Virus record (IMG/VR): IMGVR_UViG_3300027917_000021
Span: 62,001-126,000 of that record
DNA: 64,000 nucleotides
Strand: one strand, 5' to 3'
From: a virus
The notes under the pieces were generated by a model. The model saw only the letters and a program-made list of their open reading frames with translations. It made no database searches and was not told the origin of the DNA. Position 1 is the first letter of the stretch. The number at the start of each line of letters is the position of its first letter. Below, piece by piece: positions 2,268 to 36,250 of the stretch. Position numbers and translations under genes: made by a program.

Positions 2268-2688
2268 ACAAAGTAAAGCAGAAAGTAAAAAACAACAAAG
2301 ATTCATGGGCATGGTTCATGCTGTGCAAAAAGGAGAATTATCTCCTAAAGAAGTTGGACCAGCAGTTCGTAAAGCTGCCCGTGAAATGAAATATAAAGAT
2401 GCGAAAGACTTCGCAGAAACAAGCCACAAAGGATTACCAGAAAAAAAAGGGTCAGTACAAATGAAGTATTTTGAGAAAACAGCTTTCAAACCTATGGAGG
2501 CATTAAAAAACATATTTAGTAAAGGACCTGGTACAGCTATGGTAAAAGCAGCCCCAACAGCAGTTATGACACAAGCCCCAAAAGCCCAACAAAAAGTAAA
2601 ACGCTTGTTTGATGCAAGGGCTCTTGCCTCTGCAGGCATAGGCGGTGCTGCAGCAGGCTATGGTTTAGGATCAATTGGTAGCGAATAA
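2260..2688 (+). CDS. DUF3008-like domain joined to an MKYFEK-tagged glycine-rich segment
   Basis: Residues 1-65 match the small DUF3008 family (KKQQRFMGMVHAVQKG, then DAKDFAETSHKGLPEKK). Normally that would be a complete protein. Here the frame runs on without a stop into MKYFEKTAFKP at residue 68, the same octapeptide that begins the following genes, and then into a hydrophobic glycine/alanine-rich end (GIGGAAAGYGLGS). The ATG at 2461 could also start a separate 76-aa tagged protein, although only a weak AAGGG lies before it. Overlaps the HNH stop by 8 bases. It may be a fusion formed by loss of a stop codon, or a deliberate two-start gene. Confidence 0.7.
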   Translation: MYKQSKAESKKQQRFMGMVHAVQKGELSPKEVGPAVRKAAREMKYKDAKDFAETSHKGLPEKKGSVQMKYFEKTAFKPMEALKNIFSKGPGTAMVKAAPTAVMTQAPKAQQKVKRLFDARALASAGIGGAAAGYGLGSIGSE

Positions 2689-2822: not shown

Positions 2823-3239
2823 ATGAAATATTTTGAGAAATTAGCCAAAGAAGACCCGGGATATTTTGGAAAACAAATGGCTGCAACACGAGCATCGAGA
2901 ATTCATGATTCTGCGGCCGGGACATTAGTTGCAGATCCGAAATTGATTAAGAAAAGATTTGAAAAAGCAATTACATATGGTGTTCCAGCAGCTATAGGAG
3001 GTGCCGGAGTAGGAGCTTTAGTAGGAAAAATGAAGGGATATACAGGTTTCGGAGCAGCAGCTGGTGCTATATTAGCAGGTTATGGCGGTGAAGTAGCCGG
3101 CATACTGAAAGCAGACAAAGAATATTTAGCTAAAAAAGGAATTGAATTATCAGCATTTGGAAACGTCAAGAAAATGACTCCAGAGGCAAAAAAGAAATAT
3201 TTACACGAGAAATACCGCGGCGGCGGTTATAAAGGATAG
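2823..3239 (+). CDS. MKYFEKLA-tagged glycine-zipper protein (138 aa)
   Basis: Begins MKYFEKLAKEDPGYFG. The middle (residues 55-95) is a glycine/alanine-rich hydrophobic hairpin (AAIGGAGVGALVGKMKGY then GFGAAAGAILAGYGGE) of the glycine-zipper type, which can insert in or cross membranes. The C-terminus is basic. No enzyme motif is present. It sits in a run of five short paralogous-looking genes that share the N-terminal octapeptide and membrane-like core. Inference: internal virion or ejection protein, with the tag as packaging signal. Confidence 0.7.
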   Translation: MKYFEKLAKEDPGYFGKQMAATRASRIHDSAAGTLVADPKLIKKRFEKAITYGVPAAIGGAGVGALVGKMKGYTGFGAAAGAILAGYGGEVAGILKADKEYLAKKGIELSAFGNVKKMTPEAKKKYLHEKYRGGGYKG

Positions 3240-3249: not shown

Positions 3250-3660
3250 ATGAAGTATTTTGAAAAAATAGCTATATCAAAAGAAGAAGAACAAACTTAC
3301 AAAAGAGCCCCATATAGGCTAGTGCCTTATGTAGGGCCATATTTAGGGACTCCAAAAGGTATGAGAAAAGAACATCCTTGGGTTTCGGCTCTATGGGGAC
3401 CCCCGGGGTCATTTGGTGCAAAATCAAAAGATACTGGAAAATCTTATTTAGAAGAAGCAGTTAAAACTGAAGCAGCAGTTCAAACTGGTATTGGTGCCGT
3501 AGCAGGCACTGTAGCAGGCGCTATGGCAGGAGCTAGAGGAAAACAATTAGCCAAAGTTATTGCTGCAGCTACAGGAATTGGTGCGGCCAGTGGGGCGGCC
3601 GGCGGTGCAATTGCTTACGGCGGTGGAAAATTATTTGCTGGGCAAAAGAAAAAAAAATAA
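3250..3660 (+). CDS. MKYFEKIA-tagged glycine-zipper protein (136 aa)
   Basis: Begins MKYFEKIAISKEEEQ. Residues 35-60 are aromatic and proline-rich. Residues 78-130 form a long Gly/Ala hydrophobic stretch (VAGTVAGAMAGARG, then GIGAASGAAGGAIAYGGG) ending in lysines. The start has AGGAAAATAAAA upstream. It has the same plan as the neighbours (tag, polar part, glycine zipper, basic end), but sequence similarity outside the tag is low. Confidence 0.7.
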   Translation: MKYFEKIAISKEEEQTYKRAPYRLVPYVGPYLGTPKGMRKEHPWVSALWGPPGSFGAKSKDTGKSYLEEAVKTEAAVQTGIGAVAGTVAGAMAGARGKQLAKVIAAATGIGAASGAAGGAIAYGGGKLFAGQKKKK

Positions 3661-3690
3661 TGAAATATAATGAAATATAATGAAATATAA
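3661..3690 (+). repeat. Three tandem copies of a 10-bp tag-start sequence
   Basis: TGAAATATAA occurs three times head to tail (3661-3670, 3671-3680, 3681-3690) and runs into TGAAATATTTTG, the true start of the next tagged gene. Each unit recreates ATGAAATAT, so three decoy starts precede the real one and all are closed by in-frame stops. This looks like replication slippage on the tag-coding DNA. Confidence 0.85.
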
Positions 3691-4394
3691 TGAAATATTT
3701 TGAAAAAAATGCTGCATCTGGTTCCATAGGTCTTTGGCCAGTTCCTAAAAATCTTGCAGGGGCGGCAATAGGAGCTACTATTTTTGGCCTTTCTGGATAT
3801 TCAGATGCAGATAAGGATAATAAATGGACATCTACAGCCAGTTCTGCATTATTAGGAGGAGTATTAGGCGCCGGAGCACAAGGTGCAGCAAGAGCAATGA
3901 AAAAATCTTTTAAGACGTCATTAAAAATGACAAAAAACATGTCAAAAAAAGACAATCCATTGGGCCAATATTTGTCAGAAGGCGTTGATCCTGCTGTAGA
4001 AAAAAGCAAGCGAGTGATGGACAAATTAAAACGTCAGGAAGACAAAATTAGGTCTCATAAAGCTAGCAAAAGTGGTTTTATGTATGAAGATGCAGTAAAA
4101 TATGTTAGGGAAAAGAAGGCTGCTACATTTAGAGTTTCTGAAAAAGATTTAACAAACAAAGAACTTCAACATGAGTTGAGAAGACCATATTTTGAAGGAT
4201 CTTTGCAGAATATGGCTTTTGGTGGAACATTTGGTGCAACCGCTTCTTTGCTTAATAAAGGAAAATCATACGGAAAAAATCTTCTAACTGGTGTTGCGGC
4301 TGGACTCATAGCAACTCCTATAGTTAATGCGTTAGATAAAAAAGACATATTAAAAGAAGTAGATCGCAGAAAGAAACACAAAGGTTATAGATAG
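3690..4394 (+). CDS. MKYFEKNA-tagged protein with two hydrophobic hairpins (234 aa)
   Basis: Begins MKYFEKNAASGS. Residues 20-35 and 50-70 are glycine-rich hydrophobic segments. Residues 70-165 are basic and helical. Residues 175-215 hold another hydrophobic stretch (FGGTFGATASLLNKG, then LLTGVAAGLIATPIV). The start is the last of four tandem ATGAAATAT units. It is the largest of the membrane-like tagged proteins and ends in an ATAGTGAA overlap with the next gene. Function unknown; inferred internal virion protein. Confidence 0.7.
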   Translation: MKYFEKNAASGSIGLWPVPKNLAGAAIGATIFGLSGYSDADKDNKWTSTASSALLGGVLGAGAQGAARAMKKSFKTSLKMTKNMSKKDNPLGQYLSEGVDPAVEKSKRVMDKLKRQEDKIRSHKASKSGFMYEDAVKYVREKKAATFRVSEKDLTNKELQHELRRPYFEGSLQNMAFGGTFGATASLLNKGKSYGKNLLTGVAAGLIATPIVNALDKKDILKEVDRRKKHKGYR

Positions 4395-4666
4395 TGAAAT
4401 ACTTTGAAAAAATATCAGAGTATAAAGAGTGGGATGATAGACACGCATTCACAGAAAATATACCGGGAGGTGCTGCTATCGGAGCTTTCGTTGGTCCAAT
4501 AGCTGCTAAATTACAAGCACAATTAATAAATCGTAAATTAAAAGCTATAGAAGAAATTAAACCATTTAAACCCGCCTTAATTAGAGCGAGCATTATTGGT
4601 GGTTTATTAGGGTCCATTGTTGGAGCTGGTAAATATGTCTATGAAAAAGAATACTACACAAAATAA
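4394..4666 (+). CDS. MKYFEKIS-tagged membrane-like protein (90 aa), GTG start
   Basis: The GTG start overlaps the previous stop (TAGTG). The GTG was chosen because it restores the octapeptide MKYFEKIS at the N-terminus. Two hydrophobic glycine-containing segments follow (GGAAIGAFVGPIAAKL, then ASIIGGLLGSIVGAG). It overlaps the next gene by 32 bases. The Ser in place of Ala at position 8 is also seen in the tagged gene at 8421. Confidence 0.7.
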   Translation: MKYFEKISEYKEWDDRHAFTENIPGGAAIGAFVGPIAAKLQAQLINRKLKAIEEIKPFKPALIRASIIGGLLGSIVGAGKYVYEKEYYTK

Positions 4667-5075
4667 ACCTAAATATTACCACTATGGTTATCGTTATATT
4701 AAACCACAGGATGAGCCTGAAGACTGGGATTATGCCATTCAGATGCATAAAAATCAAAATGGCACCCACTTTGATTTTAGATTAGCGAAGCCAGGACATG
4801 ATTATGCTTATTCCTGGGCATCACGCAAGCCACCTCTTAATATTACATCTCCTATTTTAACCCGCCGAACACATGATCATACTATAGAGCATATGGATTT
4901 TGAAGGTCCTCTTGAAACAGCAAGAGGCACGGGCACTGTGCAATTGCTTAAAAGGGGCAAAACTAAATTGCATTCTATAGATGATAAAGGTATTAAGTTT
5001 AAACTTGATACTGGTGAATTTTTACTTTTAACAAATGTTAAAGGTAAAAAATATATTCTAACAACTCCAACCTAA
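4635..5075 (+). CDS. Stand-alone LigD-type 3'-phosphoesterase domain protein
   Basis: Resembles the 3'-phosphoesterase (PE) domain of bacterial DNA ligase D, which trims 3'-phosphates and ribonucleotides from DNA ends before ligation. Visible signature: NGTHFDFRL near residues 40-48 (the H-x-D-x-R metal core), SWASRKPP, then HDHTIEHMDFEG (second histidine cluster) and GTGTVQLL. I prefer the ATG at 4635 to the earlier TTG because GGAG lies 9 bases upstream. A second PE domain, fused to a ligase, lies at 34904-36250. It has no MKYFEK tag. Metal-dependent end repair is an inference from the family. Confidence 0.75.
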   Translation: MSMKKNTTQNKPKYYHYGYRYIKPQDEPEDWDYAIQMHKNQNGTHFDFRLAKPGHDYAYSWASRKPPLNITSPILTRRTHDHTIEHMDFEGPLETARGTGTVQLLKRGKTKLHSIDDKGIKFKLDTGEFLLLTNVKGKKYILTTPT

Positions 5076-8420: not shown

Positions 8421-8834
8421 ATGAAATACTTTGAAAAATTGTCAGGTTTTGGTGATTTTACTAGAAAAATGTTTAGTTATCATGACCTAGATAAAATGTC
8501 GGAAGAAACAAAAATACCTAAAAAATATTTAGAATATCAGTATCATAATACCCGTGTTCCAAATTCTTTTTTGTATTCATATGACAATGCTAAAAAAGAT
8601 ATGACAAAACTTTATAATTTAAGAAAAACATATGAAACTACCAGAGCACCACTACTTAAACTTAAAGAAGGATCAAAAGAAGACAAAGCCTTTTTAAAAA
8701 AGAATAAAAAAACTTTAGATAGTCAATTATTGGCCTGGGCAACGTACGGTAAGGGATTGCAAGAAAAATATCATAAGATAAAAAATCAACCGTCAGGTAC
8801 AATAGATTACAAAAAAAATTTAAAGAATAAATGA
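8421..8834 (+). CDS. MKYFEKLS-tagged basic protein (137 aa)
   Basis: Begins MKYFEKLSGFGDFTRK. The rest is lysine- and tyrosine-rich, probably helical, with no glycine-zipper segment and no recognised motif. It ends in an ATGA overlap with the next tagged gene. The high positive charge would suit DNA binding inside a capsid, which is inference only. Confidence 0.65.
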   Translation: MKYFEKLSGFGDFTRKMFSYHDLDKMSEETKIPKKYLEYQYHNTRVPNSFLYSYDNAKKDMTKLYNLRKTYETTRAPLLKLKEGSKEDKAFLKKNKKTLDSQLLAWATYGKGLQEKYHKIKNQPSGTIDYKKNLKNK

Positions 8835-9241
8835 AATATTTTAAAAAGTTAGCTGCCGGGCCACCTGTTATTTTTAAAGTCCACCCAAAGAATCCAGAGG
8901 TAAAAGGAGCTTATATAATGCCTCGAAGAGAATGGGAAGTTTATCGTATTACACAAGATGAGGCTTTAGCAAATAAAGTTAGGAAAAAGGGGGCAATTCT
9001 TATAAATCCGGCAATAAAAGATCCAGAGCATATAAAGAAAATTAAACGTCATGAGTTGGTCCATTATTTACGACATAAAAACCGTCAGTGGTCGTCTATG
9101 AATTATGGTGCACTTCCCGGGGCACGTTTTGTTGAAGAAACGGCAGCATACGGGAAAGTACATGGAAGCAAAATAAAAGGCATGTTACATGCTATGAAAT
9201 CATCAAAACCTATAAGAGCAGTAGGAAAATTATTACATTGA
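8831..9241 (+). CDS. MKYFKKLA-tagged HExxH metallopeptidase-like protein (136 aa)
   Basis: Begins MKYFKKLAAGPP (E5 of the tag is K). Residues 75-82 carry HELVHYLRH, a zincin-type HExxH, and a downstream glutamate in FVEETAAYG could be the third zinc ligand. A paralogue with the same plan is at 10593-11081 (HELVHHLRA, IVEETAAHG). I read both as small zinc peptidases or inactive relatives. Because they carry the tag they may be packaged and delivered. Stop and start overlap the next gene (TTGA). Confidence 0.65.
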   Translation: MKYFKKLAAGPPVIFKVHPKNPEVKGAYIMPRREWEVYRITQDEALANKVRKKGAILINPAIKDPEHIKKIKRHELVHYLRHKNRQWSSMNYGALPGARFVEETAAYGKVHGSKIKGMLHAMKSSKPIRAVGKLLH

Positions 9242-10593
9242 GATACTTCGAAAAAAATGCCGATATTGTAAGAGAGTATAAAGATAGTCCAAAAGGATTG
9301 TTATATATTGCTCCAACTGGCTCTGGCAAAACTAAAAAAATATTAGAAGCTACTAGAAATGATCAGGCTGTTGCCATTACTCCAGCGTCAATAACAAAAA
9401 ATCTAGATAAAGAAGAACGTAAATTTTTTAATACACGTTCTTCAAGAAAATCTTTTACGTATGCTAAATTATCTCGTGGTGTTGATCTTCCGGAAAGAAA
9501 ACATTTGATATTGGACGAATCTCACAATATAAAAAATCCTAAGACAAAAACTTTTCAGAATATAGCATTACAAAGATGGAAGTTTGACAAAGCACTTTTA
9601 GCAACAGCAACGCCGATGTATAATGAACCATACGATATTGTATCCCAGGTGAATCTTGTTGCCAATCAAAAAGTTCTTCCAATGAATAAAAAAGATTTTT
9701 ACAAAAAATTTTATACGGAAGTTCAAAACGATCCTGGGCTAGTTGGACGTTTATTAGGAATTAAAGGTGCTAAAGAAAGAGTTTTAAAAGATCCAAAGCA
9801 TGTTCGCTCATTATTAGATAAGCATACTTATGTAGTCAGTGGTAATAAAGTAGAAAAACTTTTACCAAAGAAAGATGAAGAAATTGTTAAAGTTCCGATG
9901 TCAAAGAATCAGCAGGAACTTTATAAATACGTAAGTAAAAAATTGCCTTTTTATTTAAAATACAAAATACAAAGGAATCTTCCTCCAACTAAAACAGAAC
10001 AGAAAGACTTAAATAGATATTTGATGGGAGTAAGACAGGTTTCTAATACAACTCGTGGGTATAGTAGTACTCCTGAAAGTCCCAAATTTGAAAAAATGGT
10101 AGCTGACGCAAGAACAGAATTAAAGGCTGGAGGAAAAGTATTAATGTATTCAAACTTTAGAGAATCTGGAGTTGATGCATTATCAAAACGTTTAGAAAAC
10201 TTAAAAATTCCACATGGCAAGATCGTTGGAAGTATGACCAAAAAACAAAGGGCAGAAGAAGTATCAAAATATACAAGCAACAAAAATAAAGTATTACTAT
10301 ACAGTGGGGCCGGATCAGAAGGATTAAATTTACCAAAAACAACTTTGGTACAAATAGCAGAACCTTTTTGGAACAAATCAAGAATAGAACAAGCAGAAGC
10401 AAGAGGAATACGTAGAGGTGATGATCCCAAAAGAACTGTAAAAGTTAAAAAATACTTGTCAGTATTTCCGGAAGAGAAAAATATATTTGGTAAGAAGAAA
10501 CAAAAACGTGCTGTGGATGAGTATCTGGTAGAAATGTCAAATAGAAAAAACAAAGAAATAAAACAACTGCTTGAGGCAATAAAGGACGAGTAA
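9238..10593 (+). CDS. MRYFEKNA-tagged SNF2-like superfamily 2 helicase
   Basis: The TTG start was chosen because it gives the tag MRYFEKNA and overlaps the preceding stop. Helicase motifs occur in order: Walker A APTGSGKTKK (about 26-35), DEAH-type LDESHN (about 97), LLATATP (about 120), SGAGSEGLNLPKTT (about 358) and the arginine-finger motif EQAEARGIRRG (about 386). At 451 aa it is a compact SNF2 or RapA-type translocase without accessory domains. A tagged helicase is odd, because it implies packaging in the virion. Phage P1 DarB is a known injected helicase-containing antirestriction protein, which suggests an early protective role (inference). Confidence 0.8.
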   Translation: MRYFEKNADIVREYKDSPKGLLYIAPTGSGKTKKILEATRNDQAVAITPASITKNLDKEERKFFNTRSSRKSFTYAKLSRGVDLPERKHLILDESHNIKNPKTKTFQNIALQRWKFDKALLATATPMYNEPYDIVSQVNLVANQKVLPMNKKDFYKKFYTEVQNDPGLVGRLLGIKGAKERVLKDPKHVRSLLDKHTYVVSGNKVEKLLPKKDEEIVKVPMSKNQQELYKYVSKKLPFYLKYKIQRNLPPTKTEQKDLNRYLMGVRQVSNTTRGYSSTPESPKFEKMVADARTELKAGGKVLMYSNFRESGVDALSKRLENLKIPHGKIVGSMTKKQRAEEVSKYTSNKNKVLLYSGAGSEGLNLPKTTLVQIAEPFWNKSRIEQAEARGIRRGDDPKRTVKVKKYLSVFPEEKNIFGKKKQKRAVDEYLVEMSNRKNKEIKQLLEAIKDE

Positions 10594-11081
10594 TGAAATA
10601 TTTTGAAAAACAGGCAGCAGGGCCACACGTAGTGTATGATACTATACCAAAAGAATTTGGGAATCTAAGAGGTGGATATTTATCAGACAAGTATATTAAG
10701 TATGTCCCAAAAAAATGGCAGGAAAGTACAAAAAAGAAAAAAGGACTTGTCATGATAAGTAAACCTATTCATGATCAGTTAATAAACAAATATGAATCAG
10801 ATCTTATAATACAAGGACTGCCAAAGCCAGTCATTGAAAAAGAAACGAAAAGATACGGAAATAAAATTATACAAAATACAAAAAGACATGAATTAGTGCA
10901 TCATTTACGTGCACAAAAAGGCAAATGGTCTAGTATAGAGACTGGCAAAAACCCAATTAAAAGAATAGTAGAAGAAACTGCGGCACATGGGAGAGTGGCA
11001 GGAAATAAATGGAAAGGGTTTAAAGAAGCCACAGAACTACATGCTCCAAAAATATACAAAATTATAAAAAAATTAATATGA
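10593..11081 (+). CDS. MKYFEKQA-tagged HExxH metallopeptidase-like protein (162 aa)
   Basis: Begins MKYFEKQAAGPHVVYD. Carries HELVHHLRA near residue 97 and IVEETAAHG near 128, as in the paralogue at 8831-9241. The two also share AAGP after the tag and a matching K-W-S-S segment after the histidines. The gene overlaps its neighbours by 1-4 bases (GTAATGA and ATATGA). The two copies flank the helicase, which suggests duplication followed by insertion, or a functional trio. Confidence 0.65.
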   Translation: MKYFEKQAAGPHVVYDTIPKEFGNLRGGYLSDKYIKYVPKKWQESTKKKKGLVMISKPIHDQLINKYESDLIIQGLPKPVIEKETKRYGNKIIQNTKRHELVHHLRAQKGKWSSIETGKNPIKRIVEETAAHGRVAGNKWKGFKEATELHAPKIYKIIKKLI

Positions 11082-11491
11082 AATACTTTGAGAAGCAGGC
11101 AGACTTTTCCGAATGGTGGGATAACCGCAAAGAAGATTGGCAACAAGCAAAATACTTAGCTAAACATAAATATTATGTTTATAAAGGTGGCCGAGAACTT
11201 GGTGCAGATCCTATTACGTTGTTAAAACATGATTGGTCAAAATTAAAACCATCAATATGGGTGCCATATCGTGAATTTTTTTATGGTGGACATGGAAAAG
11301 ACCCTATGGTATTTCATGAGTTTCGAAGAGCTGTAGGAAAACATGTAGCCTCAGAAACACACCACGATTATAAATACAAAAACACAGGTAAACCCACAGC
11401 GGAAAATATAGCTGATTGGTGGAGCATTCAAAAAATACATCATCCGGAAACTCCGGATATTAAAACTTGGATTAGAAAAGGTGTAAAATAA
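11078..11491 (+). CDS. MKYFEKQA-tagged DUF5662-like protein (137 aa)
   Basis: Begins MKYFEKQADFSEWW. The central part (HKYYVYKGGRELG, then LLKHDWSKLKPSIWVPYREF) resembles the DUF5662 family of small phage and bacterial proteins, in which conserved H, D and W residues suggest an HD-like metal site. Residues HVASETHHDYKYK may complete it. This is the last gene of the second tagged cluster; a new promoter follows. Confidence 0.65.
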   Translation: MKYFEKQADFSEWWDNRKEDWQQAKYLAKHKYYVYKGGRELGADPITLLKHDWSKLKPSIWVPYREFFYGGHGKDPMVFHEFRRAVGKHVASETHHDYKYKNTGKPTAENIADWWSIQKIHHPETPDIKTWIRKGVK

Positions 11492-11557: not shown

Positions 11558-12517
11558 ATGACAAACGAGCAAATCGAATACTTCGGAAAAGAAGCGGCTA
11601 AAACATACCTTGAAGAAGGCACTGAATTAAATGAAACAATTACAAAAATAGCAGAAGAACACGCTCTTAACCGATATGAAATCGAAAGAATAGTAGAAGC
11701 GGCAAACACTAATACTTATTTATCTATGTTTAGTAATTTAGATGATAAATATATAGAATTTCCAGTAGCAGATGTTGAAAAAATAGCAGAAGCTTTATCG
11801 CCTATTGTGGAAGATGATCCGTATTATGATTATGATGAGCCGCCTGAAAAAGAATTAGAAGAAGTACAAATTTTTCCAGTTGAGGGTGCTGAGAAGACAT
11901 CCTCCGTTGCAGAAGAAAACAAGTTTTCTTCTGAAAATCTTCAATTCCGTCAGCGTGCTAAGTATGCAGAACAACAATTGATAGAAAGAATATCTCTAGC
12001 TGAGAATGCTTTTTCGGAGGAAACAGAGAATCTTTATCAAATGGTAAAACAAGCGGTGCTATCTGGTACCCGCTTCGGGCATATCAAAGCCGCGATGGAA
12101 CAGTACTCTCCTGGAAAATTTGTAGAAAAATTTGCTGAGTATACAAAAGAAAGATTAAAAAAAGAAGATCTTAGACTTGATCTTTCTGATTGTGAAGAAA
12201 AACTTGGTACAGTAAATAAAAATAATGAAATTATGAAGCAGCTTGATAAGATTGCAAATATTTATGGTGAAGCTGCTGTGTATAATGAAAAACTTGCAGC
12301 TTTTGGTTTAGATGTTGTCCGCCGCCTAGGTTCCGGTGCAATGAATTTTGGAAGAGGTGCTTTACGGTTCGCGGATACACACTCACGTACGGCATTATTT
12401 GGAACTGCAGCCGCAGGAGCTGTTGGTAGTGGTATAGCATATAAAGCAGGAAAAACAAAAGCTGAATATGAATTGTCTGCCATCCGAAACATACCACAAA
12501 AATATCAGAAGAGGTAA
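11558..12517 (+). CDS. Head/core protein with EKxA motifs and C-terminal membrane-like segment (319 aa)
   Basis: The N-terminus (MTNEQIEYFGKEAAKTY) looks like a divergent version of the MKYFEKxA tag. The protein is acidic and helical and contains several EKxA sequences (EKIAE, EKFAE, EKLAA). It ends in a glycine/alanine hydrophobic segment (TALFGTAAAGAVGSGIAY) and a basic tail. It lies two genes upstream of the prohead protease, in the place where scaffold or core proteins usually are. Inferred role: prohead core or internal head protein cut by the protease. No family recognised. Confidence 0.6.
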   Translation: MTNEQIEYFGKEAAKTYLEEGTELNETITKIAEEHALNRYEIERIVEAANTNTYLSMFSNLDDKYIEFPVADVEKIAEALSPIVEDDPYYDYDEPPEKELEEVQIFPVEGAEKTSSVAEENKFSSENLQFRQRAKYAEQQLIERISLAENAFSEETENLYQMVKQAVLSGTRFGHIKAAMEQYSPGKFVEKFAEYTKERLKKEDLRLDLSDCEEKLGTVNKNNEIMKQLDKIANIYGEAAVYNEKLAAFGLDVVRRLGSGAMNFGRGALRFADTHSRTALFGTAAAGAVGSGIAYKAGKTKAEYELSAIRNIPQKYQKR

Positions 12518-12520
12518 TGA

Positions 12521-13159
12521 ATGAAAAATGTGGAGCGAATAATCCGCCTTTATAAAGATGGAAAAATAGATGACACAACCATGGTTAAGATGGCAGTATT
12601 CAAAGAAAAGGTTGCAGAACTGATTAAAGAAAGTGGGCCCGGCGGTTTAACAAAAAATCAAGTATTGATGGCAGCTGCAATCTCTGCTGGTATTGGTTTG
12701 GGAAGTCAGGCTATTGAAAGTTTATCTAATTACTTTATAACAACGCGTGCAAAAAAACAATTAGATGAAACAACCGAGAAAATATTTGAAGATATTTATA
12801 ATTCACCGGAAGTAAAATCCTTTCCACGTGAAGTTGCGGAACAATATTTTAATACATTGAAACATTTTTCACCACATGTTGCCTCTGATCCATTAGCTGC
12901 AAAAACTTATTTATTGCAAATGCTCAAATGGTCAGATGAATATTCCGCTCCTATATCTACTATGACTGTAAGAGATTTAGCAGAAGTAGAAAATAAAGCT
13001 ATGGATGCTTTAAATAAAAGACCACTAGCAGGACCAGATATTGGTAAATTTACAGCACCAATTGTGGAGAGCATACAAAAAGCACCAAAAAACTTGTATA
13101 CGGAAATAAAAGAAACGCCACAGTCACTTCAAACAAGTATGTTTAACGAATATGATTAA
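12521..13159 (+). CDS. Head-module protein with hydrophobic segment (212 aa)
   Basis: The N-terminus is helical (MKNVERIIRLYKDGKID), followed by FKEKVAELIK, another EKxA site at about 29-32. A hydrophobic stretch (VLMAAAISAGIGLGSQ) lies near 50-65, and the remainder is helical. It overlaps the protease gene by 8 bases. Probably another core or internal head component; too short for a portal protein. Confidence 0.55.
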   Translation: MKNVERIIRLYKDGKIDDTTMVKMAVFKEKVAELIKESGPGGLTKNQVLMAAAISAGIGLGSQAIESLSNYFITTRAKKQLDETTEKIFEDIYNSPEVKSFPREVAEQYFNTLKHFSPHVASDPLAAKTYLLQMLKWSDEYSAPISTMTVRDLAEVENKAMDALNKRPLAGPDIGKFTAPIVESIQKAPKNLYTEIKETPQSLQTSMFNEYD

Positions 13160-14891
13160 ATATTTAGATTATTATCCAGGCGATAAAGGCGTTGAAATTT
13201 CTCTGATACATCCTGGTGTAATGGAGAAAACAGCCGAATATCATCCGGAACTACAAGAATTTTTACAAGTTTTAAAACCAGACCCAAAAAGATACTTTCT
13301 TTTAGTCAATGCATTAGGTGCAGGCGAATATTATGGCAGTAATCGCAATGGTGATTATTTCCCTGAACCTGCTTTGGTTGAATATCATAAGACCTTTGAA
13401 ACACTTGGAAAAGTATTTAGACATCACAAAAATAAACCTCAATTAGGCCATCGTGTTTATGGTGAAATTCTTTATTCTCATTATAATCCTAAAATGCACA
13501 GAGTAGAATTGGTTATTGGGCTTGATGTTGGTGCAGCACCAGATCTAAAAGAAAGAATTGATCGTGGTGAATTTCCACCAATTTCTATGGGATCGAAAGT
13601 TCCTTATGATGAATGTTCTATTTGTGGTAATAAAGCACCAAGAATACAGGATTATTGTGAACACGCAAAAACAATGATGAATCATGTTATGCCTGATGGT
13701 CGTAAAGTTTATGTTATTAATCGCAAACCTAAGTTTTTTGATATCAGCTTCGTTCATGTGCCGGCCGATCGTACAGCATATACTTTACGAAAAGTTGCTG
13801 AATACGTAGAAGAGGAACCATCGGCTATTAAAACTGCAAAAGCATTAAAACAGGCTGGCATTAAAGAATCAACCATCGTAAAAATCATAGATGGTCAAGT
13901 TGACTATGCCGGGCCAGATCCAAGCCGTCTTATTGTAGAATCACAGCCTAATATGTCAAAAAGGCTGATTAATGATTTGGCACATTCAGCCCCATTAAAT
14001 GAAGTACTAAGTACTCTCGTAGCTACAAGAGTTATGCCTAAAAAAGCAGAATTTCAAAGATTAATATTAACTGCAAAAGGCCAAGAAAAATTAGCAGAAG
14101 AACTTGAGAGAGAAAAAGTTTGTTTTATTATACATGATGATATTGAACCGGTTATTCCGAATGATGTGAATATTCATCAGTTCAACCAAAAAACAGCAGA
14201 AGTATTACGTTCTTATCCAGAATATTTTGAAAGAGCGCCATTAACTAAACCGGTTGTCATGGCCCGGATACTTGAGAAATATGCATTTTTAGATACTGGC
14301 CATCAAAAAGGCAGTCCAATGGAACAAGCAGGAGTAATCCCTCCTTTAAAAGATATGCCTGACGACAAACAAAATACTCATGGAGAAGAACAGCCTATTA
14401 TATCCCCTATAAAAAACCCACTAATACCTCTTACAGCAATAGGCGGTTTATATTTAGGTGTTTCAAAACTTATGAATTCTTTTGGTGCTGCAGAAGGACT
14501 AAAAGCATTATTGGCAAATAATCCGTGGTTGCTTCCTATACTTATAGGAGGAGCAACTATTGGTAGCATGGAAATGCAAAAGCGATTATTTGAAAAAACT
14601 GCTTCCGGAGTTGGATTTTTAGGAAGTATGTTATTAAGTGTTCCGGCCACTTATCTTTATGCCGGTTTTCAGGAAAACAAAGTAAGGCAAGGCAGACCAA
14701 TAGGCTCTTATTCTAACTTTGTTAGAAAGAATCCTCTATTGGCAAGCATTGGCCATGGTTTTCTTGGCAGTAAGACAACAAAATTGTTGTCTAAAGTAGG
14801 AGAAGCAAAAGGCAAACTTTTTGATGCTTCTCTTCAATTAGATGAACAAAAATTTAATAATATTTATAATATTGTTATACATGGTAATTAG
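13152..14891 (+). CDS. Prohead maturation protease with long C-terminal extension (579 aa)
   Basis: Residues 50-230 resemble phage prohead core proteases: SNRNGDYFPE, a histidine-rich HHKNKPQLGH (candidate catalytic His), PPISMGSKVPYDECSICG (candidate nucleophile Ser followed by a Cys-rich insert) and FFDISFVHVPADRTAY. Such proteases process scaffold and capsid proteins inside the prohead. The C-terminal 350 residues are not needed for that fold. They include EKTA, EKLA, EKYA and a second EKTA, plus a hydrophobic region (WLLPILIGGATIG). The extension may be a scaffold part cut from the enzyme by self-processing. Confidence 0.75.
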   Translation: MIKYLDYYPGDKGVEISLIHPGVMEKTAEYHPELQEFLQVLKPDPKRYFLLVNALGAGEYYGSNRNGDYFPEPALVEYHKTFETLGKVFRHHKNKPQLGHRVYGEILYSHYNPKMHRVELVIGLDVGAAPDLKERIDRGEFPPISMGSKVPYDECSICGNKAPRIQDYCEHAKTMMNHVMPDGRKVYVINRKPKFFDISFVHVPADRTAYTLRKVAEYVEEEPSAIKTAKALKQAGIKESTIVKIIDGQVDYAGPDPSRLIVESQPNMSKRLINDLAHSAPLNEVLSTLVATRVMPKKAEFQRLILTAKGQEKLAEELEREKVCFIIHDDIEPVIPNDVNIHQFNQKTAEVLRSYPEYFERAPLTKPVVMARILEKYAFLDTGHQKGSPMEQAGVIPPLKDMPDDKQNTHGEEQPIISPIKNPLIPLTAIGGLYLGVSKLMNSFGAAEGLKALLANNPWLLPILIGGATIGSMEMQKRLFEKTASGVGFLGSMLLSVPATYLYAGFQENKVRQGRPIGSYSNFVRKNPLLASIGHGFLGSKTTKLLSKVGEAKGKLFDASLQLDEQKFNNIYNIVIHGN

Positions 14892-14894
14892 GTA

Positions 14895-14923
14895 TTGACA
14901 AGAATTGTACAATTCTTTATATT
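14895..14923 (+). promoter_or_regulatory. Consensus promoter for scaffold/capsid operon
   Basis: TTGACA (14895-14900), 17-base spacer containing the palindrome AGAATTGTACAATTCT, TATATT (14918-14923). The palindrome within the spacer could be an operator. The next start has the strong ribosome site ACGGAGGAAAA. Confidence 0.85.
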
Positions 14924-14964
14924 TAAACTGATTTCCATTTAATTTTAAACGGAGGAAAATATAA

Positions 14965-15546
14965 ATGGCTAAAGAAGGATTTAACCTTGAATCTTTTCTA
15001 AAAACTTTAGAAGATGACAAGGAAAAAACAGCTGAAGAAAAAGTAGAAGAACCAGTAGAAGAGCCTACTGAAGAACCTACTGAAGAACCTACTGAAGAAG
15101 AACCAGCAGAAGAAACAAAAACTGCTGAAAATCTCGAAAGAGAAAAAGTAGCTGAGCTGGTGGAAGAAGGCCAAATCATGGCTCGCGCTTTCCACGAAGA
15201 ATTAACAAAACTTGCTGTTGGTGATGGACCTTATACACCAAATCCAGCAGCTATAAAAGAGCCTAACGAAGTTAGCCACATGAGTGTTGGTGACATTAAA
15301 ATGGACCAAACAGCCAAAGTGGAAGCTCTTTTAAATCAAATTCAAGCTGCTGTACGTAGTGGTGGCGGAGACATGACATTTACGTTTAATCCTGGTGGGT
15401 CACAACCGGTAGTACCAGATGAAACCGTACTTCCTGCAGATGCTGCATCAGCACAAAAATCTCAAGCAGCCGCTGCAAGCATGAATAAAGCTGCAGCCGC
15501 AAAAATCATTGATAATCTTTACAAGAAAGTATTTGGAGAAGAATAA
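14965..15546 (+). CDS. Acidic scaffold-like protein (193 aa) with EEPT repeats
   Basis: Very acidic N-terminal half with tandem EEPT/EEPA repeats near residues 30-50, flanked by EKTAEE (about 21) and REKVAEL (about 55). The segment LVEEGQIMARAFHEEL near 62-77 recurs in the next two proteins. The second half is alanine/serine-rich and low-complexity. Charge, repeats and position ahead of the capsid gene fit a scaffold or prohead core protein. An ATAATGG overlap joins it to the next gene. Confidence 0.65.
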   Translation: MAKEGFNLESFLKTLEDDKEKTAEEKVEEPVEEPTEEPTEEPTEEEPAEETKTAENLEREKVAELVEEGQIMARAFHEELTKLAVGDGPYTPNPAAIKEPNEVSHMSVGDIKMDQTAKVEALLNQIQAAVRSGGGDMTFTFNPGGSQPVVPDETVLPADAASAQKSQAAAASMNKAAAAKIIDNLYKKVFGEE

Positions 15547-15839
15547 TGGGACTTTTAGAAACTTACGAAGCCATGCAAAAAGAGGCAGCGGTTGCGGAAG
15601 TTGAAGCCCAACGTCGCGAAATGTTGACGAAATATGCTTCTGCCGCTGAAGAACTTCTTGAGAATGAATATGGCGATGATTATAATGCTGATGATGTAGA
15701 ACTATTAGCTGAGAAATTAATTGAAGCTGATGTAGAGGCTATGGAACAGCAAGAAAAAGTTGCTGAATATGAAGAAGCCGGCAAAATAATGGCACAAGCT
15801 TTTATTAAAGAGCTTAAAGAAAAAAAATCCGAAAAATAA
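15546..15839 (+). CDS. Prohead core-like protein (97 aa)
   Basis: Helical and acidic. LTKYASAAEELLENEYGDDY and DDVELLAEKLIEADVEA align with the first part of the next protein (LEKYAARAENLLSQKFGKNY, DVEKLAEALIRLDVKR), so the two are paralogues. It ends in YEEAGKIMAQAFIKEL, the motif shared with the preceding scaffold-like protein. Inferred head core component. Confidence 0.6.
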   Translation: MGLLETYEAMQKEAAVAEVEAQRREMLTKYASAAEELLENEYGDDYNADDVELLAEKLIEADVEAMEQQEKVAEYEEAGKIMAQAFIKELKEKKSEK

Positions 15840-16292
15840 ATGAACATACAAAGAATACAGTTTCTGGAAAAATATGCTGCCCGAGCTGAAAATCTTTTGT
15901 CACAAAAATTCGGAAAAAATTATACGCCAGAAGATGTAGAGAAACTTGCTGAAGCATTGATACGCCTGGACGTTAAGCGGGCAGCGAATATCGATCGTGT
16001 TGAAGAATTAGTCAAACAGGCACAATATACAGCAAACGCTTTTGTAAAAGAAATAAACAAAGAATTGGGAGAAGATGCTTTTGCTAAATTAGCGAAAGCA
16101 CCTTTTCTTGATGCTTTAAAGCTATTAGTAAAAGGTAAAGGATCCGAGTTCAGCCAAAAACTTATAGGAGCCTTAAAAAATACCGGCCAAAGAACGATGA
16201 AATTTGTAAAAACAGATCCTTATTTGGCTGCCGGATTTGCCGGAGCTGGTGGTGCAACTGCTCTTACTGGCCATGCTTTATTATCGGATTAA
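15840..16292 (+). CDS. Prohead core-like protein with C-terminal glycine-rich segment (150 aa)
   Basis: Residues 1-80 are paralogous to the whole of the preceding protein. The protein then continues with a basic linker and a hydrophobic end (LAAGFAGAGGATALTGHALL) of the glycine-zipper kind found in the MKYFEK proteins. This links the head-core family with the tagged family by architecture. No spacing to the previous gene. Confidence 0.6.
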   Translation: MNIQRIQFLEKYAARAENLLSQKFGKNYTPEDVEKLAEALIRLDVKRAANIDRVEELVKQAQYTANAFVKEINKELGEDAFAKLAKAPFLDALKLLVKGKGSEFSQKLIGALKNTGQRTMKFVKTDPYLAAGFAGAGGATALTGHALLSD

Positions 16293-16298
16293 ACGCGA

Positions 16299-16778
16299 AT
16301 GATTAGTTTGAGAAACTTGTTAAAAGACATAGAAGCATCTGAACAAGAGAAGCATGCCGAACAAAGTCCGGAAATTACTATTGACGATTTACGTAATACA
16401 GCAAAATCTCTTGAAAAATTAGCTTCGCCTGATCGTGAGATTGATGTGATAGCTAAATTAGCAGTTCTTATGGATATGGGTCTTACCAAAGAAGCAGCCG
16501 ATATAGTTACAAAGGCTAAAAAATATCTTTGGAAAGTAAAAGATGCAAACAGGGCTGCAAAAATAATGGAAGAAGCGGGAAATATAGAGAAGGAAACAAA
16601 GAGAATCCAAGAAGGTAAAACTCTTGCTAAATATAAATGGCCTGCTATTGCAACCGCTGGTACAGTAGGTGGTTTGTATTTAGGTTCACAAATATCTGAA
16701 AAAAACAAAAAAGATGAACTTAAAAACGTTGCTCGTAAATACTTCTCTCTTGGCCGACAATCCGCAGGAGGAGCATAA
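16299..16778 (+). CDS. Head-module protein with EKxA sites and hydrophobic segment (159 aa)
   Basis: Helical. EKHAEQ near residue 18 and LEKLASP near 43 are further EKxA-type sites. The C-terminal third holds a hydrophobic segment (AIATAGTVGGLYLGSQI) followed by a basic end. It overlaps the next start (ATAATG). Function unknown; the same general architecture as the other head-core proteins. Confidence 0.55.
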   Translation: MISLRNLLKDIEASEQEKHAEQSPEITIDDLRNTAKSLEKLASPDREIDVIAKLAVLMDMGLTKEAADIVTKAKKYLWKVKDANRAAKIMEEAGNIEKETKRIQEGKTLAKYKWPAIATAGTVGGLYLGSQISEKNKKDELKNVARKYFSLGRQSAGGA

Positions 16779-17122
16779 TGAGTTTTGAAAAAACAGCTCA
16801 AGAACACTATAATTTTTTACTAGAAGAATATGAAAAATCACACGGTGCAGAAGAACGTGAGAAGCTCGCAATGACCGTAGTTACCAAAATGGTAGAGCGC
16901 GCAGATCTCACAGAGCCCGGTGAGGTTTTAGAAAAGTTGGCAGAACTTCGCCAACAAACAACAGAGGACTTAAAAATTCTCGAAAAAGCGGTCGAGTTGG
17001 GTAGAATTCCTGGGGGTGAGGGACCCACAAAAACAGCGTCAGCTTCGCTGGGTTCCCTAGCGGAGATCCCAAGCGGAGATGACCAGGATAATCTAACAAA
17101 ATTTCTACTCGAAGATTATTAA
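16778..17122 (+). CDS. Small head-module protein beginning MSFEKTA (114 aa)
   Basis: Begins MSFEKTAQEHYN, a shortened relative of the tag. Additional EKxA-type sites are REKLAMT and LEKLAEL. It is acidic and helical, with a glycine/proline-rich linker near 85-95. It lies just before the decoration and capsid genes. The density of EKxA motifs (three in 114 residues) is the highest in the window. Confidence 0.55.
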   Translation: MSFEKTAQEHYNFLLEEYEKSHGAEEREKLAMTVVTKMVERADLTEPGEVLEKLAELRQQTTEDLKILEKAVELGRIPGGEGPTKTASASLGSLAEIPSGDDQDNLTKFLLEDY

Positions 17123-17145
17123 AAATAACGTAAGGAGATGCCCGA

Positions 17146-17607
17146 ATGTTAAGAGTTATTTCCGATTTAACACTGTGCGATCGTTTCGATAAAGAATATG
17201 AAGCTGGTGTAGCTACGAGCGGTGTTGCTGGAATGTGGGTCACTTTGAACTCAAGTGGAAAATTTGACCTTACAGCCACATCTACTGCAACTGGCTTAAG
17301 CTATCAGATCTGGAACGAAAGTAATCGCGATGGCACAGCCGGATTTAGCCCTGATGTTGGCGCAACTACTAAAGTTTCCGTTCTTAAAGGCAGTTATCGT
17401 GCACAAACTGACCAAATAGAAAGTTCTGCATATACTGCAGCTTCTGTTGGTGATGCACTAATGGCTGGAGACGACGGTTTACTTGTAGCTGCATCTGATG
17501 ATGCGGACGGCGCAAAAGCAACAGTGGCTTGGGTAACAGCCAAATTAGGATCTGTTACATATCTTGGCACTACTTACACTAACGTTGTTGAAATACACGT
17601 GAAATAA
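17146..17607 (+). CDS. Probable capsid decoration protein (153 aa)
   Basis: Beta-rich and small-residue-rich (GVAGMWVTLNSSGKFDLT, AYTAASVGDALMAGDDG), with no EKxA site. The position directly before the major capsid gene, the AAGGAG ribosome site and the size are typical of head decoration or stabilisation proteins that bind the outside of mature capsids. No specific family identified. Confidence 0.6.
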   Translation: MLRVISDLTLCDRFDKEYEAGVATSGVAGMWVTLNSSGKFDLTATSTATGLSYQIWNESNRDGTAGFSPDVGATTKVSVLKGSYRAQTDQIESSAYTAASVGDALMAGDDGLLVAASDDADGAKATVAWVTAKLGSVTYLGTTYTNVVEIHVK

Positions 17608-17621
17608 AGGAGAATAGACTA

Positions 17622-18542
17622 ATGGCTGATGTTCCTGCTAATGTAATTAACGAATTGTTCGTTTCTAAGCTGGATCAACCTGAAGGTCGCGAAAAGCTGG
17701 CTGCTGAAGGCTCTGCCTTCATTCGTACAAAGCTGCGTGAAGTATCCTTTGCACGTAAAATCATCAACCCAGTGTATGTGACCAAAGCTGATCTACAAAG
17801 ATCCGTACAACATGACGGTTTGGTAAAAATCGTCGATATTGAGCCTGATTCTGCAGCAATGGCTATCAACTTCCGTGGTGGAGCTGATACCCGTTACGTA
17901 GAAGGCGAACGCTACGAGATTCCTTTCTTCATGATTACTTCTGAAGATTTTCAGAAAACTGAAGAGGAACTGTTAGCGTATGAAATGCCGATTACAGACG
18001 TTATCGAAAGAAACTCTGTAAAAGACATCCAAGAAATTGAAGATAGTGCATTCATTACTCGTGTCAACGCAGCAATTGCAGTGTCTGGAAAATCAAATGT
18101 TGCTGTAACTACTTCTGGTGGTTATATTGACAAAACAGTTTTTGCGACATTGTTTAACCTGCTTGAAGCCGGTGGTGGCACAGTAGATCGTCTAAAAACA
18201 GAAGTTGTTCTTATGAACAACCAAGATTATAATGATCTATTACTATGGGAAGCCAACAGTGTAGGCGACCAAGTTGGTGCAGAAATCACTGTCAATGGTT
18301 ATACGTATGCAACTCTTTTTGGTAAGAGACTTATTGTAACCAATAAAGCAGATTTAGTTCCTGCAAAAACTATTTATGCCTTTGCAGCACAAGAGTTCTT
18401 AGGAAACTTTTTTATCCTGAACGATACACGGTTCTGGATTGACAAGAAAAAGAACCTGGTAACATGGAGTGCATATGAAAGCATTGGTATGGGTATCGGA
18501 AATATCCGTGCAGTTGCATCTGTTACTTGGACAAGCGCGTAA
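17622..18542 (+). CDS. Major capsid protein, HK97-type
   Basis: 306 aa, strong ribosome site (AAAGGAGA), followed by a terminator, and more G+C-balanced codon choice than its neighbours, all as expected for a highly expressed coat protein. A helical N-terminus of about 30 residues contains REKLAAEG (23-30), a likely cleavage site. The rest alternates helices and strands, with FRGGADTRYVEGERYEIPFF as a possible E-loop, and ends in a beta segment (GNIRAVASVTWTSA). The HK97 fold is inferred from size, context and layout. Confidence 0.8.
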   Translation: MADVPANVINELFVSKLDQPEGREKLAAEGSAFIRTKLREVSFARKIINPVYVTKADLQRSVQHDGLVKIVDIEPDSAAMAINFRGGADTRYVEGERYEIPFFMITSEDFQKTEEELLAYEMPITDVIERNSVKDIQEIEDSAFITRVNAAIAVSGKSNVAVTTSGGYIDKTVFATLFNLLEAGGGTVDRLKTEVVLMNNQDYNDLLLWEANSVGDQVGAEITVNGYTYATLFGKRLIVTNKADLVPAKTIYAFAAQEFLGNFFILNDTRFWIDKKKNLVTWSAYESIGMGIGNIRAVASVTWTSA

Positions 18543-33273: not shown

Positions 33274-33672
33274 ATGAAATATTTTGAAAAAAATGCAGAT
33301 ATACAATATGCCTTGAAAGGAATGGTCAAGGGATTTAAAGCTGGAACAATGGATTTAGCTACCGCAGCAGATAGAATTAAGAGGTTAGCTGAAAGAAAAA
33401 AGAATTTAATGCAATATATAGACTTAAATCCAAATGTATTTGATCAAAATCCTGCCATGGTAGATAAAGTACATCGTTATTCTAAAATGCTTGTTGGAAG
33501 TAATATGTTATATAATAAAAGGCAGGTTGACCTACTTAAGTTAGGTGCAGCACCAGTGCATCCTATGCAAGGCACACTGCTGAATGTGCAAACAAGAGAA
33601 TCACAAACAAAATACAACTCTAAAGTTTTAGGTAAAAAAAGAGCTGACATTTTAGTACCACTATGGCGTTAA
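33274..33672 (+). CDS. MKYFEKNA-tagged protein in the fibre region (132 aa)
   Basis: Begins MKYFEKNADIQYALKG, the only tagged gene far from the two tagged clusters. The product is basic and helical, with no glycine zipper. Overlaps the diguanylate cyclase start by 10 bases, so the two are translated together. Its presence here shows that the tag moves as an independent module and is not a result of local tandem duplication only. Confidence 0.7.
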   Translation: MKYFEKNADIQYALKGMVKGFKAGTMDLATAADRIKRLAERKKNLMQYIDLNPNVFDQNPAMVDKVHRYSKMLVGSNMLYNKRQVDLLKLGAAPVHPMQGTLLNVQTRESQTKYNSKVLGKKRADILVPLWR

Positions 33673-34904
33673 AAGAATACATTCTGAATAATTTTCAATA
33701 TCTTATAGAAAATAATCCGGATGGTATTGTAATACATTCAGATGGTATCATAAGATATGCAAATAAAAGTATTCTTACTATATTTGGTGCTTCATCGGCT
33801 GATGAAATTATAGGTAGAAATATTTTTGATTTCATACAACCGGATTATCATGAAGCTGCAAAAATACGTATTGCCAAAGCACTAAACAATATGGAACCCG
33901 CTCCACTAGCAGAATATGAAGCAATAAAATTAGATGGAGCAAAAATATATATAGAAATACTTTCAATACCTTTTATGAGAGGAGAAGCTAAGGCATTACA
34001 AGTATTAGTTAAAGATATTTCTGAAAGAAAAAGACAATATAAAGCTTTACAATACTCTGAAGAAAAATTTCGTGCTTTATTTCAAACAGCGCCTGACGCA
34101 ATTTTATTGTCAAATAAAGAAACAAATATTATTTCTTTAAATTCTGCTTTGGAAGATATGTTTGGTTATACTTACGATGAATTAATTGGTAAATCATGGA
34201 TGTTGCTTGTTGCCAAAAGGTTGCGAAATGATCGAATGGAGCGTATAGAATATATAAGAGAAAAACTAAAAGCTGGTGAATTTCTTAAAGAAGAAGTATA
34301 TGGAACAACTAAATTTGGCAAAGACATCCCTGTAGAAATAAAAGTTGGGCGATGGCAAATAAATGGTGAACCTTTTTATACTACCATTATAAGAGACATA
34401 TCGGAAAGAAGAGAGTTTGAAGCCAAATTAAAGCAATTAGCTGATATTGACCATCTAACTGGAATATATAATCGTCGTGCCGGTTTAATACTTACAGAAC
34501 AATTGTTAAAAACTTCTAGAAGAACTAACCAACCTATTACTTTATGTTATTTGGATCTCGATAATTTTAAATATGTAAACGATTCACATGGGCATGTTGC
34601 AGGAGATAAAGTTTTAAATGCTGTAGCGAGTTTAATAAAAGATAATCTTCGTGAATCAGACATATTTTTTAGGCTTGGTGGTGATGAATTTATAATTGTC
34701 TGGAACAATACATTTCTAGAACAGGGACATCAACAATGGTCCAGAATATTAAATAAATTTAATGAGTGGAATAAAGAAAATTATTCTACTCGATTGGGGA
34801 TAAGTGCTGGATTTGTATGTCCAGATCTTAAGAAAGACATAAACATTGATCGTATTATAGATATTGCAGATAAGGAAATGTATAAATCCAAAGGAAACAA
34901 ATAA
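33663..34904 (+). CDS. Diguanylate cyclase, PAS-PAS-GGDEF
   Basis: Makes cyclic di-GMP from two GTP. Residues 8-120 and 128-250 are PAS sensor domains (each closing with KDISERK or RDISERR). The GGDEF domain spans 255-413, with LADIDHLTGIYNRR at its start, DLDNFKYVNDSHGH, and the active site RLGGDEF near 337-343. RESD lies exactly five residues before GGDEF and matches the inhibitory I-site. There is no membrane segment, so it is soluble. Everything needed for activity seems intact. It lies within a virion operon, overlapping a tagged gene and the PE-ligase gene, which is very unusual for a phage. Confidence 0.9.
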   Translation: MALKEYILNNFQYLIENNPDGIVIHSDGIIRYANKSILTIFGASSADEIIGRNIFDFIQPDYHEAAKIRIAKALNNMEPAPLAEYEAIKLDGAKIYIEILSIPFMRGEAKALQVLVKDISERKRQYKALQYSEEKFRALFQTAPDAILLSNKETNIISLNSALEDMFGYTYDELIGKSWMLLVAKRLRNDRMERIEYIREKLKAGEFLKEEVYGTTKFGKDIPVEIKVGRWQINGEPFYTTIIRDISERREFEAKLKQLADIDHLTGIYNRRAGLILTEQLLKTSRRTNQPITLCYLDLDNFKYVNDSHGHVAGDKVLNAVASLIKDNLRESDIFFRLGGDEFIIVWNNTFLEQGHQQWSRILNKFNEWNKENYSTRLGISAGFVCPDLKKDINIDRIIDIADKEMYKSKGNK

Positions 34905-36250
34905 TGGAGTATGCACCAGGAATACCTGATAAAAGCTCTAAATCAGTAATACCTTCTTCTCAAGACAAAATATGGTCATATGTAATTCAGTATCATATGG
35001 CAGATGTTGCTGGGCCACACTATGATTTTAGAATATCTGATGGGGCAGTAGCATACTCTTGGGCAACGAGAGCAGGGTTGCCGAGCTTAGGAGATAAGGT
35101 ACTGTGGATACGACAGCCAGACCATACTCCAGAATATATGTCTTTTTCAGGAGAAATTGCCGATGGATATGGAAAAGGATCAGTTAAAGTCATTGATTCA
35201 GGCCAGATCCATGTAATTAGTGCAACCCCGGAAAAAATATCATTTAATTTATATAAAGGTGCAGGAACGCAAAAATTTACTCTTGTTTATACAGGAGGAA
35301 ATAATTGGTTATGCATGAACACAACGCCAACCAAAGAAACACGCCCAGAAATACCAGAGAAAAAAATACAAGCAAGATCTATTGATCCATCTAAAATATC
35401 TTTTACAAATTCTAACCAAATTTTAACTGAAAAGATAGATGGGGCTGCCAGTTTATTTGTATTAAGAAAAGGACGACCAGTAGAAGTTTTTAGTTATAGG
35501 AAAAGCAAGCGAGGTCCGGAACTTATAAATCGGACATATAAATATCCTGATTTATATAATACCATGGTGCCTGAAGAATTAGATAAAACTACTTTATGGG
35601 GAGAGGCCTATGTTAGTGATGCTGAAGGACGAACACTTCCACACAGAGAAGGTACTGGCCTGCTCAATGCTAATGTGTGGAGAGCAAGAGATGAGGTAGC
35701 TAAAAGACACCTTAAATTCGACAATGTAATATTTAATATTGATAAATACAAAGGTGTGGATTACTCTAAAAAACCATATGGTGAAAAAATAGAGCTATTG
35801 AAAGAGATCCAAAGTAAGCTGCCTCAACTCAAGCTCCCTATTATGGCTGAAACTCCTTTAGAAAAAAGAAGATTATATGATGCTATAAAATCCGGGAAAC
35901 ACCCTCACACAACAGAAGGGTGGGTTATTTGGGATTTGAATTCAGACCGCCCAATTAAATCTAAATTAAAATTGGATACAGAATTATATGTACAGGGATA
36001 TGAAGAAGGCAAAGGAAGATTAGAAGGAAAACTTGGAAAAATTTTGGCAACTCCCGATCCACAAGGAAAGGGCCCTATTACGAGAGTAGGTGGAGGATTT
36101 ACAGATTTTGAGCGAGAACAAATCTGGAATAACCGGTTAACATATTTGGGAAAACCGATTACTATAGAATATCAAGAAAAATTACCGTCTGGTAAATATA
36201 GAATGCCCATTTTTAAAGTATTTCGTACTGCAGAGTTTTGGCCTACCTAA
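34904..36250 (+). CDS. 3'-phosphoesterase / ATP-dependent DNA ligase fusion
   Basis: Residues 20-145 are a LigD-type 3'-phosphoesterase domain (HYDFRISDG, SWATRAG, PDHTPEYMSFSGE). Residues 165-350 are the ligase nucleotidyltransferase, with motif I EKIDGAAS (adenylated Lys near 176), LWGEAYV, EGWVIWD and the motif V lysines in IKSKLKLD. The end is an OB fold like T7-type ligases (GGGFTDFEREQIWNNR, then LPSGKYRMPIFKVFR). LigD in bacteria also has a primase domain, absent here. It could mend 3'-blocked nicks in one polypeptide. Overlaps the cyclase gene (AATAATGG). Confidence 0.85.
   Translation: MEYAPGIPDKSSKSVIPSSQDKIWSYVIQYHMADVAGPHYDFRISDGAVAYSWATRAGLPSLGDKVLWIRQPDHTPEYMSFSGEIADGYGKGSVKVIDSGQIHVISATPEKISFNLYKGAGTQKFTLVYTGGNNWLCMNTTPTKETRPEIPEKKIQARSIDPSKISFTNSNQILTEKIDGAASLFVLRKGRPVEVFSYRKSKRGPELINRTYKYPDLYNTMVPEELDKTTLWGEAYVSDAEGRTLPHREGTGLLNANVWRARDEVAKRHLKFDNVIFNIDKYKGVDYSKKPYGEKIELLKEIQSKLPQLKLPIMAETPLEKRRLYDAIKSGKHPHTTEGWVIWDLNSDRPIKSKLKLDTELYVQGYEEGKGRLEGKLGKILATPDPQGKGPITRVGGGFTDFEREQIWNNRLTYLGKPITIEYQEKLPSGKYRMPIFKVFRTAEFWPT

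Follow-up and report, generated by a model that had tools for sequence, protein, structure and literature searches.

The head-assembly proteins encoded on a 155,895-bp viral contig carry a recurrent motif, [LMFIV]-E-K-x-A-[E/S/G/A], that probably marks where the herpesvirus/T4-type prohead protease encoded at 13152 recognizes and cuts its substrates; judging from sequence and predicted structure, the same core closes short N-terminal tags that would act like the capsid-targeting sequence (CTS) of T4. The window analyzed here is the 64,000-nucleotide stretch comprising bases 62001-126000 of the contig, and coordinates refer to the window unless another record is named. It contains a terminase gene (6866), a head gene cluster (11558-18542), a tail region (18662-41269) that includes the sheath gene (39018), and replication genes. 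A scan of a genome collection matched only scattered metagenome-assembled bins belonging to several phyla, which point to no particular host.

The K-x-A motif in head proteins and relatives

The initial annotation had described EKxA strings in the head proteins from 11558 to 17122, including the prohead protease, and every string it listed was found in the protein named. In these eight proteins (1823 aa) EKxA occurs 18 times, compared with a mean of 2.19 over 1000 within-protein shuffles (sd 1.45, maximum 8). The same count by region gave no EKxA in 7312 aa of the tail region (18662-41269, leaving out a tagged ORF); replication genes have 4 occurrences (3.2 expected) and the left arm has 5 (5.3 expected). 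Among the orderings of E, K, A, and one free position in the head proteins, EK.A (18) and K.AE (17), which are largely the same sites, stand apart from all others (1 to 3); an unbiased ranking of gapped triplets places EK.A first, K.AE second, and EK..E third. The window also has more of the loose, T4-like [LI]xE than expected (45 versus 28), an excess not shared by the relatives L028, L055, L166, and L167. K.A is raised in all loci of this comparison, most weakly in L071, while AxE and SxE show no enrichment. A consensus with Glu at P1 as the sole signal was rejected, given this inconsistency of [LI]xE and the consistency of K.A.

The head genes, their motif sites, and the N-terminal tags of the window described here lie on the + strand. 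The cluster begins with a scaffold-like head protein (11558..12517) that has six strong K-x-A sites (residues 13, 32, 77, 166, 193, and 233; 0.4 expected), followed by a head protein (12521..13159) with EKVAE at residues 29-33, the same residue position as in the relative L010. Downstream of the protease are an acidic scaffold-like protein (14965..15546; EKTAE, EKVAE), two small scaffold-like proteins (15546..15839, with QKEAA, TKYAS, and EKVAE; 15840..16292, with EKYAA, EKLAE, and VKQAQ), and two further head-region proteins (16299..16778, with EKHAE, EKLAS, AKLAV, and TKEAA; 16778..17122, with EKTAQ, EKLAM, and EKLAE).

A capsid search yielded 72 viral loci. [EDQNT]KxA lies at least about 3 sd above the shuffled mean in 26 of 27 head regions with related capsid genes, among them those of Salmonella phage Arash and Vibrio phage D69; these relatives form one broad clade, and neither the replicates nor the counts pooled from them are independent. 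The signal is weak and below threshold in LR745208, and phage G, counted apart from the 27, is not enriched. Pooling 21 genomes gives the consensus [LMFIV]-E-K-x-A-[E/S/G/A], outside which the signal fades: a hydrophobic residue at -2; E (Q, V) at -1; K; then T, V, Q, or L and not G, P, or D; A; and finally E, S, G, or A, a position that disfavours K, I, L, P, and R. Across relatives E is a preference, whereas K and A do not vary, leaving K-x-A as the fixed core. When the frame hydrophobic-[ETNQD]-?-x-A is searched, the open position holds K 254 times (27 expected) and R 8 times (9.5 expected); A in its position likewise numbers 254 (26 expected), and S or G scarcely replaces it.

The distribution of sites within proteins is uneven. 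Strong sites number 62 in protease tails (7 expected) and 16 in the propeptides of 18 proteases, and they are dense in scaffold-like proteins as well, all of them places where a protease would be expected to cut; K-x-A is depleted in the bodies of major capsid proteins (MCPs; 11 versus 43 expected) and in protease cores (10 versus 19 expected). In T4, used as a positive control for the identical test because experiments have established its motif, [LI]xE occurs 31 times in core proteins (12.8 expected) and 16 times in sheath, tube, and portal (12.3 expected). When the Arash and D69 genomes were scanned for the motif alone, most of the genome-wide excess fell in the head cluster together with a single remote gene (174466 in Arash, 170872 in D69); such a scan is a means of flagging candidate head proteins without homology. 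In the genome to which the window belongs it flags, outside the window, a 635-aa protein (G000:22116-24023, numbered 2116-4023 in L003) with six strong K-x-A sites (0.9 expected), a probable head or internal protein of unassigned family; its identification as a portal was rejected, as it resembles neither Arash gp218 nor phage G gp14. A search of the open literature found no paper on phage Arash or on this motif.

Motif position in the prohead protease and major capsid protein

The protease (13152..14891; PHROG head maturation protease, 4e-10) comprises a propeptide (residues 1-28), a core (about 29-216), and a scaffold-like tail (217-579). H92 and S145, the putative catalytic His and Ser, are invariant in 18 relatives. 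The predicted N-terminal self-cleavage site, after A28, is EKTA (residues 25-28; 13224..13235); K26 and A28 are invariant in all 18 proteases compared, some of them as little as 28% identical, and A28 is followed solely by E, G, A, or S. RKVA (residues 213-216; 13788..13799) is the predicted C-terminal release site of the core, and all 18 aligned proteases have a second K-x-A within residues 209-251, mostly KVA, KIA, or KLA followed by S. An AF2 model is ordered over about 30-216 and a helical segment, with pLDDT <50 for residues 1-27 and from 220, and RKVA ends the last core strand; because order spans about 30-216, the core has a K-x-A site at either edge. The model matches T4 gp21 (5jbl) weakly (prob 0.94-0.96, E 0.04, TM-score on target about 0.5), which is suggestive only, and hhalign of the protease profile against single-sequence T4 gp21 gave no significant match.

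In two relatives the gene for the prohead protease contains Hint and LAGLIDADG domains of intein-like type (L012:4741-7632, L064:3809-7924), and a LAGLIDADG insert is also present in the terminase of L065. In the terminases of L096, L102, and L104 (records G006, G004, and G005, respectively), 11 of 11 in-frame TGA codons align with Trp of the window terminase, which points to TGA being read as Trp.

The major capsid protein (17622..18542; PHROG major head protein, 9e-18) has an HK97 fold: the AF2 model (pTM 0.74) matches HK97 and other HK97-fold capsids in Foldseek (E about 1e-9, prob 1.00). REKLAAEG occupies residues 23-30 (R23-E-K-L-A-A-E-G30), as the initial annotation had it, and cleavage is predicted after A27 of EKLA (residues 24-27; 17691..17702). 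A K-x-A is found near the N terminus in 29 of the 32 MCPs compared and is kept where flanking residues are deleted; the residue before it changes from E to D, Q, N, M, K, V, or T in relatives. The MCPs of L074/L080 and phage G lack it. In the model EKLA forms part of a predicted helix (20-41) rather than a loop.

The scissile bond is likeliest to follow A and possibly follows K; after A is our best guess, given a motif of the form P3-x-P1 and the residues favoured just behind A. Cleavage of the same consensus two residues earlier, hydrophobic-E-K↓x-A (the arrow marks the bond), is unlikely, although it has some attraction: the hydrophobic residue would be P3, as in T4 [IL]xE, and R is not accepted for K, as for a strict P1. 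It would, however, put two strong positions, A and the residue after it, on the primed side, and the small or acidic preference after A resembles a P1' preference; the SPN3US protease prefers Ser at P1' (PMC10052503), and the R and M sites of herpes assemblin are given as Ala↓Thr and Ala↓Ser, those of pseudorabies virus being, from alignment, most likely YLQA↓T and presumably VQA↓S (PMC4498786).

We consider it less probable still that K-x-A is a docking peptide that binds the inner capsid surface or a site on scaffold or protease, and is not a cut site. The helix predicted around the MCP motif would suit docking, as would the N-terminal tags described below, which show none of the constraint after A seen in head sites; in T4, moreover, CTS residues for targeting are partly separate from those for processing (PMC9026906). 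Docking alone leaves unexplained the invariant K-x-A at both protease core borders, the many sites in protease tails, the depletion in MCP body and protease core, and the preference after A.

N-terminal tags and candidate head cargo

At least 11 ORFs in the window start with MKYFEKx[A/S] or a one-residue variant. The tags are MKYFEKTA (2461..2484, the probable true start inside ORF 2260-2688), MKYFEKLA (2823..2846), MKYFEKIA (3250..3273), MKYFEKNA (3690..3713 and 33274..33297), MKYFEKIS with a GTG start (4394..4417; MKYFEKTS in the G002 homologue), MKYFEKLS (8421..8444), MKYFKKLA (8831..8854) and MKYFEKQA (10593..10616) on HELVH-containing proteins, MRYFEKNA with a TTG start (9238..9261) on an SNF2-like helicase whose orthologues bear other K-x-A tags, and MKYFEKQA (11078..11101) on a DUF5662 protein (4.5e-10). 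The EKxA core that the initial annotation had seen in this tag is thus present with three departures, two tags ending in S and one having K for E. The proteins downstream of the tags are mostly unrelated, and most gave no match in a Pfam search.

Tagging extends to related contigs, with different peptides and the same core. G013 has 18 tagged starts, mostly MKYFTKxA; G003 uses MDKAExxFEKLA, G012 MxxIEKIA and similar peptides, and G010 AFxDELxKIA. A short N-terminal peptide that sits on unrelated proteins and ends in the protease motif, as in the T4 CTS, is therefore found in the window, G013, G003, G010, and G012. Orthologues exchange tags, in the manner of T4 CTSs: the DUF5662 protein has MKYFEKQA in the window and MDKAEVLFEKLA in G003, and in G002, where DUF5662 is fused internally, LEKTA is kept at the domain border and MKYF is lost. 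Three different tags occur among the helicase orthologues, those of L065 and Arash having none, and a small protein common to G003 and G008 has different tags ending in the same core. Tagged proteins are probably capsid-targeted cargo carried inside the head. K directly follows A in 13 of 62 tags, compared with 8 of 498 head sites; because the residue after A is unconstrained in tags, their cleavage is less certain, and the motif may there serve targeting at least as much as cleavage.

We rejected, as very improbable, the view that MKYFEKxA is no protein signal, being either left over from duplication or a DNA element that serves translation start: the same start peptide does recur on neighbouring genes, but what follows it is mostly unrelated, its codons vary synonymously while the peptide is conserved, its start codons are ATG, GTG, or TTG, and orthologues have different tags with the same core. 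An effect of composition, with chance or coiled-coil heptads producing the motif in E/K/A-rich helical scaffold proteins, has the least chance of all, since the head proteins from 11558 to 17122 are indeed rich in A (10.3%), E (11.2%), and K (9.3%), yet shuffling gives 2.2 and not 18 occurrences, no other arrangement of E, K, and A is raised, K is not exchanged for R, and the protease and MCP positions are fixed.

The two tagged HELVH paralogues (8831-9241 and 10593-11081) are metalloprotease-like, and in G002 an orthologue and the helicase form one fusion protein. Directly after the tagged ORF at 33274 lies a phage-encoded PAS-PAS-GGDEF diguanylate cyclase (33663-34901). A LigD-type 3'-phosphoesterase is fused to a DNA ligase at 34904-36250, a second, smaller phosphoesterase-like ORF is located at 4617-5075, and an orthologue in G014 has the tag KYFTKTS. 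In Arash the annotated RNA polymerase beta subunit (130093) and in D69 a similar large ORF (143288) start with MPK[SK]AS, possibly a minimal tag on a virion RNA polymerase, although this could be chance.

Proposed mechanism and comparison with known systems

That the protease at 13152 has EKxA as its cleavage consensus, as first proposed, remains the best reading, and it is the position-specific constraint, the sites at both core borders and at the MCP N terminus, the depletion in parts that have to survive processing, and the T4 control that argue for it. Counting against it are the helical setting of the MCP motif, the freedom after A and the occasional S for A in tags, the raised [LI]xE of the window, and the MCPs of L074/L080 and phage G that lack the motif. 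The proposal needs amendment in that the consensus is not EKxA but K-x-A, with a hydrophobic residue two positions ahead of K, in that the scissile bond is itself a prediction, and in that tagged proteins look like capsid-targeted cargo. According to the model, the protease would be built into the prohead together with the scaffold-like proteins, free its own core at A28 and A216, and digest its own tail and the scaffold proteins at many sites. Removal of the first 27 MCP residues would leave a mature capsid protein starting at A28, and the head would then expand and package DNA. An N-terminal peptide ending in the core (MKYFEKxA here, others in relatives) would direct accessory proteins into the prohead core; the tag would perhaps be clipped afterward, and the cargo would stay inside the head for delivery with the DNA. 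For the wider proposition, that a broad phage clade combines a protease cutting after Ala in K-x-A with an exchangeable cargo tag for host delivery, we see about even chances.

If true, the consensus would provide a sequence rule that predicts capsid processing and would mark dozens of phage proteins (helicase, DUF5662, HELVH-containing, and others) as probably packaged in the head and delivered to the host. It would also add a non-Glu specificity to the prohead proteases of large phages, which would be new and assemblin-like, and make a link between phage and herpesvirus proteases testable via substrate choice. A test is practical because Arash, an isolated phage that grows on a laboratory strain of Salmonella (ATCC 14028), carries the same sites.

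The system resembles T4 gp21 and the CTS in having a protease with scaffold and shell substrates, a motif over-represented in core proteins, and a short N-terminal peptide on varied internal proteins that contains the cleavage site. T4, phiKZ, and SPN3US proteases cut after Glu (PMC5694885, PMC9026906), in T4 within [LI]xE, whereas here the core is K-x-A and cleavage is predicted. T4 targeting residues are partly separate from processing residues (PMC9026906), and, unlike the T4 CTS, the tags here differ between related phages and occur on up to about 18 proteins per contig. With phiKZ gp175 and SPN3US gp245 the protease shares its setting in large-phage heads, a P3-x-P1 motif, many propeptide sites, and (here predicted) C-terminal self-cleavage; their motifs are S-x-E and A-x-E, with Glu at P1, and gp245 does not cleave itself at the N terminus, whereas the N-terminal propeptide here holds an invariant K-x-A.

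Herpesvirus assemblin (UL26/pUL26N) is likewise a protease fused to a C-terminal scaffold portion and released at a site immediately behind its catalytic domain, and it has Ala before the bond and Ser/Thr after it (PMC4498786), as predicted for the bond here. It differs in that K two residues before A is required here and in that the predicted substrates include the capsid protein and tagged cargo. Salmonella phage Arash and Vibrio phage D69 have a homologous capsid protein (about 33% identity), the protease, the head gene order, and the same K-x-A sites; no data on their processing were found. They lack the MKYFEKxA cassette and have only a few short candidates, such as MEKQAS. Encapsulin cargo-loading peptides also recruit unrelated cargo into an HK97-fold shell by means of a short peptide; they are known as C-terminal peptides that act without proteolysis.
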